Shown here: positions 26,309 to 27,589 of the stretch, piece after piece | Layout: each line of letters begins with the position of its first letter | Position numbering within the stretch: position 1 is the stretch's first letter | Origin: Acidobacteriota bacterium | Lineage (GTDB): Bacteria > Acidobacteriota > Blastocatellia > Pyrinomonadales > Pyrinomonadaceae | Direction: 5' to 3' | Assembly: GCA_019247455.1 (NCBI GenBank) | Contig: JAFAOW010000047.1 | Coordinates: 1-34,922, forward strand | DNA: 34,922 bases | The notes under the pieces: model-generated | The model's database searches: none | Seen by the model: only the letters and a program-made list of their open reading frames with translations | Told to the model about the DNA's origin: nothing | Translations under genes and position numbers: made by a program

Positions 26309-26340
26309 GTCCCTAGTGTAGTTTGGCGAGCAAACAAACA

Positions 26341-26374
26341 AAAGCGCCGTCTCGATTGCTCGATACGACGCTTT
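26341..26374 (-). terminator. Intrinsic-terminator-like hairpin directly upstream of obgE
   Basis: On the minus strand a 10-bp stem including one G-U pair (26341-26350 with 26365-26374) encloses a second stem, TCGA/TCGA, with loop GCAA. It is followed by TGTTTGTTTG. In the minus direction it ends the candidate non-coding RNA, and lies 33 bases before the obgE ATG, so it could equally act as an attenuator. In the plus direction it is followed by TATTTTTTCC. Confidence 0.6.
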
Positions 26375-26867
26375 TATTTTTTCCTTTTGGTCGAATGCCG
26401 AAACACTCGTCAAAGGGGTTTGGCAGCTATCGCATGTACACGTTCCAGCCGCCGATTTGTATCCCGACCTGTCGTCTGCGGAGACTCGAGCCCGGTCAGC
26501 ACCCATCAAAGTTTTCACCCATCTGTTGGCGCTTTCGCGCCGGTGCCTTTAGGTTTTTGTTATGGTGGCTTTTCCTCCACCGCCGGTTACGTTCCCGGCA
26601 ACGAGGTCCGCTGCACATCTCCCCGAAAGGAACTGCATATCGGACGGCTTCGCACTCAAACCAAGATGATCGATCTCGGCGAGCGTCATCCCGTTTTTAT
26701 CCGGGCGACTCCGGCCGGCATGCCTGCCGACCATCGCAAGCCTTTCGGCTTCGGCTCCGAGCGTTTTGAACAGCGGCCTTCCGCTCCTTCTGCTCTCGAA
26801 CAGCGTGTCACCACATCTGTTCCACCTCTCGGTGCCGGTCAAGAAACCCGTAAGTCATCTCGACTGT
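26341..26867 (-). ncRNA. Candidate structured non-coding RNA or long obgE leader, about 0.5 kb
   Basis: No convincing protein frame exists here, but the minus-strand sequence reads as a series of hairpins between a promoter and a terminator. In order: CACC-GAGA-GGTG (26823-26834); AGCGG/CCGCT (26772-26785); AAGCC-GAAA-GGCTT (26738-26751); a 7-bp stem with one G-U (26713-26732); CCCG/CGGG (26690-26705); a nested 40-base stem-loop GTCCG..TGCA (26606-26645); GCCGG/CCGGC (26582-26599); GGTGG/CCACC (26564-26581); GGCGC-GAAA-GCGCC (26528-26541) inside GCACC/GGTGC (26499-26546); GTCT/AGAC (26474-26485) inside GACC/GGTC; and a 7-bp stem (26422-26453). Three GNRA tetraloops argue for selection on RNA. 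A 97-codon frame (26549-26842) matches nothing known to me. Function unknown. Confidence 0.55.
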
Positions 26868-26873
26868 GATGCT

Positions 26874-26902
26874 ATCTTACACCCCCATTTTCTCAAGTCA
26901 AG
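26874..26902 (-). promoter_or_regulatory. Sigma70-like promoter of the candidate RNA
   Basis: On the minus strand TTGACT (26896-26901) is followed after 16 bases by TAAGAT (26874-26879); reading the -35 as CTTGAC gives a 17-base spacer. Transcription would start near 26867. The -35 box lies inside the 10-base centre of a perfect 7-bp inverted repeat, a possible operator. Confidence 0.5.
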
Positions 26903-26941
26903 TAGAAAATACTTTAGGTTTCGCCCTGTATTTATGGGGGT
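26881..26941. repeat. Nested perfect inverted repeats around the candidate promoter
   Basis: ACCCCCAT (26881-26888) is the exact inverse of ATGGGGGT (26934-26941). Inside it ATTTTCT (26887-26893) is the exact inverse of AGAAAAT (26904-26910), flanking the -35 box. Both look like protein-binding dyads rather than a terminator, since no T run follows in either direction. Confidence 0.55.
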
Positions 26942-27509: not shown

Positions 27510-27515
27510 TTCTGT

Positions 27516-27543
27516 GAGTGGCGAGTGGCGAGTGACGAGTGAC
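27516..27543. repeat. 7-bp tandem repeat between rplU and rpmA
   Basis: Four consecutive 7-bp units on the plus strand: GAGTGGC twice (27516-27529) and GAGTGAC twice (27530-27543), followed by a partial unit. The array lies in the 80-base spacer of the rplU-rpmA operon, ending just before the rpmA start, so it is in the transcribed spacer and includes the region where a ribosome binding site would be expected. Confidence 0.85.
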
Positions 27544-27589
27544 GAGCAAGAAATGGTTCTCGACTCAAAACTCTCACTCTCAACCCGAC

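Follow-up and report, generated by a model that had tools for sequence, protein, structure and literature searches.

The window analysed here is a stretch of 34,922 nucleotides whose minus strand carries a free-standing non-coding RNA gene between rpmA and obgE. The gene is about 539 nt long and runs from 26868 to a U-tract near 26330, as delimited by its promoter, its terminator and the conserved ends of the alignment of its homologues, whose lengths range from 511 to 640 nt (about 540 nt for the window copy). An earlier sequence-only reading had proposed a candidate structured RNA at 26341-26867; the candidate proved real, and its limits were right to within about 10 nt. The flanking genes named in that reading were identified by Pfam as L27 (PF01016, rpmA) and Obg (PF01018, obgE). 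Directly upstream of the rpmA start, at 27512-27550, lie short tandem GAGTGGC/GAGTGAC units.

The promoter and the terminator-like hairpin predicted at opposite ends of the candidate were both recovered, and they travel with the RNA across genera. The promoter is of the sigma-70 type (TTGACT-16-TAAGAT, 26901-26874, minus strand), conserved in the alignment and found in the intact aligned members of the homologue set; consequently, transcription is expected to start near 26868. The intrinsic terminator hairpin with its U-rich tail (26374-26332, helix 22) covaries in relatives: 15 of its 18 pairs have changed on both sides, and three pass the phylogeny-aware covariation test described below. Upstream of the -35 box and including it, the block CCTAAAGTATTTTCTACTTGACTT (26895-26918) is conserved in the genus and several sister genera and may be an UP element or a regulator site. 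Within the genome it occurs at one place only, even with up to 3 mismatches allowed. Conservation in several genera combined with a single occurrence in the genome marks it as a private promoter element, and a shared promoter regulon was rejected on the same grounds. In another group of genera, the 24-nt -35 block (26895-26918) is replaced by a different conserved block, AAAATAAAACACACAAAAA.

Protein coding was rejected for both strands, in agreement with the earlier view that the stretch holds no credible gene. A Pfam search with the open reading frames crossing the RNA gene gave no credible match (best E 0.15), and the length differences among homologues are not multiples of three. Folding of the minus strand is markedly more stable than that of dinucleotide-shuffled sequences (z -4.50; 0 of 100 shuffles as good), while the plus strand reaches a z of -1.05 against dinucleotide shuffles.

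Homologues can be aligned and show strong covariation with no conserved coding. The structure obtained with RNAalifold comprises about 16 helices and 136 pairs. Among 30 members of the genus, 93.1% of the cells are paired, 79 of the 136 pairs have changed on both sides (0 of 500 shuffles as good), and 428 double-change cells are observed against 125 expected; as a control, sliding the partners lowers pairing to 34-45%. An R-scape-style test, which takes phylogeny into account, was re-implemented for this analysis and applied to 58 sequences across the family, using Fitch reconstruction on a FastTree tree, a branch-preserving null and an APC-corrected G statistic. It yields 9 pairs at E <= 0.05, 8 of them within the structure, and structure pairs make up 20 of the 25 top-scoring among 137,026 column pairs. 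Under a harsher null that preserves column rates, 5 significant pairs are left, all within the structure. The pairs passing the phylogeny-aware test are located in P1, P2, P7 and the terminator, and compensatory changes appear in the pair counts of P3, P6, P8, P9, P10, P12, P13 and P14. With many covarying stems and a length above the mark of about 450 nt taken here for large ornate RNAs of the OLE/ROOL/GOLLD type, the molecule has the size and stems of that group.

All helices lie on the minus strand. At the 5' end, the P1 hairpin AGUC...GACC (26837-26865, helix 1) has 4 pairs changed on both sides and 96.8% of its cells paired. The long-range stem P2 (26752-26837, helix 2) is formed by the arms 26837-26828 and 26761-26752 and encloses P3, with a GUGA tetraloop, and P4 (helices 2-5 in all); 8 of its 11 pairs have changed on both sides, and one is significant in the phylogeny-aware test. 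It is followed by P5 (GCCGAAAGGC, 26738-26751), which contains the invariant CCGAAAGG with its GAAA tetraloop and has flanking pairs that vary in concert in other genera (GAGCC/GGCUC, GAACC/GGUUC, GAGACC/GGUCU). The variable hairpin P6 (26713-26732, helix 9) has all 6 of its 6 pairs changed on both sides. In P7 (26684-26710, helix 10), which presents the conserved GGAUAAAAAC loop, 6 of 8 pairs have changed on both sides, 98.3% of cells are paired and two pairs pass the phylogeny-aware test. P8 (26660-26680, helices 11-12) has a UGAUCA-like loop in many members, and P9 (26606-26645, helix 13) has 4 of 5 pairs changed on both sides. When the P8 loop of the window was compared with its counterparts at L046, L047, L050, L057 and L059, part of the lineages had the palindromes UGAUCA or UAAUUA, and the rest GGACCC or GGAACC; P8 could possibly form a second self-contact.

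P10 (GCCGG...CCGGC with a CGUA loop, 26582-26599) shows compensatory GACGG/CCGUC and GGCGG/CCGCC pairings in relatives. It adjoins the hyperconserved core at 26552-26581, which consists of P11 (GGUGG-AGGAAAAG-CCACC) and an A-rich strand. The P11 stem (helix 16) is invariant in the 30 genus members and nearly invariant in 27 family members, so that its support comes from conservation. The GG of the P11 loop could pair with CC after the A-rich strand to give an H-type pseudoknot, a possibility that stays inferential because invariant bases cannot covary. Further towards the 3' end lie P12 (GGCACC...GGGUGC with inner hairpins, 26499-26547, helix 17), with 3 of 7 pairs changed on both sides, and P13 (GACCGG...UCGG with an inner hairpin, 26464-26497, helices 18-19). 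P14 (26422-26454, helix 20), with 6 of 8 stem pairs changed on both sides, carries at its apex CGUGUACAUG with a palindromic GUAC, and P15 (26393-26408) is a UUCGG-type hairpin. In one genome (G109), a shortened RNA (L054:2542-2847) lacks P12, P13 and P14 and keeps the 5' part, the core and the terminator.

Several sequence islands are nearly unchanged across the family: GCGGUGACGC (GUGA tetraloop), CCGAAAGG, GGAUAAAAAC, CGUAACCGGCGGUGGAGGAAAAGCCACC-ACAACAAAAACC (P10/P11 and the A-rich strand), UGACCGG and CGUGUACAUG. The three GNRA hairpins pointed out from sequence alone fared unevenly. The P5 hairpin is conserved in nearly all relatives; GGCGCGAAAGCGCC within P12 keeps its hairpin form in relatives, though its loop is not conserved; and conservation fails for the GAGA hairpin CACCGAGAGGUG, whose strand pairs long-range in P2 instead. 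The conserved GUGA tetraloop (UGCGGUGACGCA type) had been overlooked. Two further pairings were discarded. The P1 loop UUACG and the P10 loop CGUAA are complementary in the window, but a kissing interaction is unsupported because the P1 side varies (UUAAG, UCACG, UUGCG) without compensation. In other genera P5 covaries locally; helix 6 of RNAalifold, which joins CCGAA to the P15 sequence UUCGG, is therefore probably spurious, a product of two conserved tetraloop motifs.

The RNA class is restricted to one bacterial family, Pyrinomonadaceae. By nucleotide search, copies were detected in 36 of the 37 genus genomes, a small number of them as fragments at contig borders, and none in 23 genomes of other families of the class. 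Three covariance models were built: R1 for the 5' domain, R2 for the core together with the 3' part, and R3 for the core in a diverse set. R2 matches 83 of 162 class genomes, all of them in one family, Pyrinomonadaceae by its named records, and belonging to 19 of about 29 genera, with nearly always one copy per genome; a marginal match in a further genome (G145, 23.5 bits) was unconfirmed by R3. About 10 of the roughly 29 family genera and the other families gave no copy, even with laxer filters and R3. Some of these family genera are represented by nearly complete genomes, and the missing detectable copies in about 10 genera imply that the RNA is not universally required. R3 has no match outside Pyrinomonadaceae in 396 genomes of the phylum, and scanning 84,980 named species with a sequence pattern returned records of Pyrinomonadaceae, Blastocatellia and 'Acidobacteria' MAGs. 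Pattern matches in Lokiarchaeota, Woesebacteria, Sphingomonas and others were dismissed as chance (at most 17 bits), failing the model where tested. In several draft genomes, contigs start or stop inside the RNA (L064, L065, L068, L075, L076), as they do at rRNA genes; assemblies of mixed communities may break at the conserved core.

An indication of expression comes from viral contigs. A pattern scan of IMG/VR showed that two Leviviricetes ssRNA-phage contigs carry pieces of the RNA on the minus strand (L176:202-390, 189 nt; L175:1-313, 313 nt), about 90% identical to family members. Both contigs encode the maturation protein PF03863, and one encodes the replicase PF03431. The RNA pieces are joined to phage sequence at different, unrelated breakpoints, most likely as chimeras of the library or the assembly. 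As ssRNA phages have no DNA stage, such contigs derive from cDNA. They suggest a transcribed RNA that is common in the communities sampled, the contigs being neither quantitative nor strand-specific; DNA carry-over may also be the source of the pieces. With moderate confidence, the RNA can be expected to be abundant in cells.

The existence of the RNA class is almost certain; it is new and belongs to the loose kind of large ornate bacterial RNAs, and 'large structured RNA class of unknown function' was the right frame from the outset. The whole explanation preferred here, considered somewhat probable, is a free-standing gene for an ornate RNA that acts in trans, is abundant and works as a folded scaffold. 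According to this account, a single-copy gene would give rise to an ornate RNA of about 540 nt from its own sigma-70 promoter, with transcription ended by the intrinsic terminator. The product might serve as the folded scaffold of a protein-RNA particle or form an RNA-only homodimer or oligomer like OLE, ROOL and GOLLD. In such an assembly, copies might touch each other through the palindromic GUAC loop of P14, with the hyperconserved P10/P11/A-rich region as a possible functional core.

The main rivals of the scaffold account are catalytic and sequestering or antisense roles. A ribozyme, acting in trans or on itself with the P10/P11/A-rich core as its active site, would be consistent with the large size, the long-range and multibranched helices, the two conserved GNRA tetraloops and the nearly invariant core of about 50 nt amid fast-changing helices. 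However, a substrate or cleavage site is not apparent, the examined members have kept both the promoter end and the terminator end intact, and known ribozymes are unmatched in Rfam, which leaves catalysis unlikely. A regulatory RNA that sequesters a protein or base-pairs with mRNAs, its ornate fold being a stabilising frame, is suggested by the trans-acting, probably abundant and family-restricted character of the molecule and by its conserved single-stranded loop segments, which are A-rich or contain GGAGG. Against it, the whole 540-nt architecture is conserved, beyond the need of known sponge RNAs, and this role too is given a low probability.

A cis-acting leader, that is, a riboswitch or attenuator controlling obgE through the terminator, is very unlikely. 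It draws on the gene order in the genus of the window and a small number of sister genera (three close ones). There, rpmA and obgE flank the RNA, and its terminator mostly ends 24-150 nt before obgE, which is on the same strand. This position is not constant, however. Some members within the genus have no obgE downstream, and in at least 12 other genera the full RNA and terminator are retained with neither rpmA nor obgE nearby. The neighbours there are unrelated or on the opposite strand, and across genera they include cupin/GNAT, MacB/FtsX, HIT, EamA, glyoxalase, TatC and flavodoxin genes. Moreover, the terminator is complete in all members, and no conserved anti-terminator alternative was seen. 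The sigma-70 promoter, the covarying terminator and the different neighbours in at least 12 genera therefore exclude a leader as the general role and argue for action in trans, a well-supported though indirect conclusion. Where the RNA adjoins obgE, read-through may still have a local effect on that gene.

It is highly improbable that the RNA serves a mobile element as guide or template (as in omega RNA/HEARO, group II introns and retrons) or is a phage RNA like ROOL or GOLLD. Mobile elements often carry large ornate RNAs, and two phage contigs contain pieces of this one. Nevertheless, its surroundings contain neither a conserved protein neighbour nor a transposase, an RT or a tRNA island, the RNA is nearly always present once per genome, and Rfam models of HEARO, introns and retrons are unmatched. 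No match was found in 50,697 phage and 72,556 plasmid records. A phage home was rejected because the two viral contigs, with their different junctions, look like chimeric cDNA or assemblies, and a third pattern match (L177) fails the model.

The sequence-only reading had recognised no landmarks of RNase P RNA, tmRNA, 6S RNA, group I/II introns or common riboswitches, and this impression was borne out. None of the 4227 models of Rfam 15, among them those of the known large RNA classes, matches the window or 20 divergent loci at the gathering threshold, and at E-values up to 10 the RNA locus has chance-level matches only. ARAGORN detects no tmRNA in the window, and searches of open-access literature turned up no report of such an RNA in Pyrinomonadaceae. 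In the same genome, RNase P RNA (RF00010, class A) is found on contig 152 (277.7 bits), tmRNA (RF00023) on contig 45 (163.6 bits) and a 6S RNA candidate (RF00013) on contig 46 (47.8 bits against a cut-off of 46.4). A divergent housekeeping RNA, to which the similar size, the single copy and short look-alike strings such as GGAGGAAA might point, can be practically dismissed, as all three were rejected as the hidden identity on being located elsewhere in the genome (for RNase P and tmRNA a refutation; for 6S a match barely above the cut-off) and as the locus itself matches Rfam no better than by chance.

The RNA can be compared with other large bacterial RNAs. OLE of Bacillota is similar in being about 600 nt long, free-standing and ornately folded with near-invariant sequence islands, and its L9.3 loop holds a palindromic tetranucleotide that switches between palindromes (PMC12286853), to which the P14 loop may be a parallel. 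It differs in its helices, motifs and phylum, the RNA described here has no Rfam match, and its dimerisation is hypothetical. ROOL and GOLLD are likewise ornate RNAs of 500-900 nt, of unknown function and probably abundant, but they are largely associated with phages or tRNA islands, whereas the present RNA is a chromosomal single-copy gene of one family with no phage, plasmid or Rfam match. The raiA motif RNA (ModT) is also a large, conserved, structured bacterial RNA; however, it occurs in other phyla, was resolved as a monomer (PMC12286853) and is not matched here by Rfam. Acido-1 (RF01686) and Acido-Lenti-1 (RF01687) are candidate RNAs reported from Acidobacteria (PMC2864571), but the Rfam scan included both and neither matches the window or the 20 divergent loci.

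The dimer contacts of OLE (L9.3) and GOLLD (L21a) are supported by palindrome-to-palindrome changes (PMC12286853). Adjacent bases cannot pair within a chain, and consequently such changes point to the pairing of two copies. Of 56 sequences, 49 have GUAC as the apical tetranucleotide of P14, 2 have GUGC, 1 has GCGC and 1 has GGCC, which makes 53 with one of these four; the other 3, from part of one genus, have the non-palindromic GACG. Most sequences are invariant at this loop. By analogy, dimerisation through the palindromic GUAC loop is suggestive, and it stays so because the change events are few and one clade is exceptional.

A more specific version of the scaffold account is tentative and rather doubtful: a Pyrinomonadaceae-restricted RNA whose copies self-assemble by kissing of a palindromic loop, giving either a particle made of RNA only or a catalytic ribonucleoprotein. 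If the self-assembly is true, the RNA would have evolved independently as a counterpart of OLE, ROOL or GOLLD, in hosts beyond those known for them. To our knowledge, only a handful of bacterial RNAs of such size and complexity are known. The large RNAs that have been solved (RNase P, tmRNA, OLE, ROOL, GOLLD) proved to be ribozymes, devices for ribosome rescue or particles that nobody had expected. About 90 distinct homologues, together with the pair table, provide a ready alignment for probing, cryo-EM and knock-out design, and the near-invariant core and the P14 palindrome offer concrete targets for testing the general self-assembly of large ornate RNAs. The finding adds a previously undescribed large RNA to a phylum whose members abound in soil but have received little genetic study.
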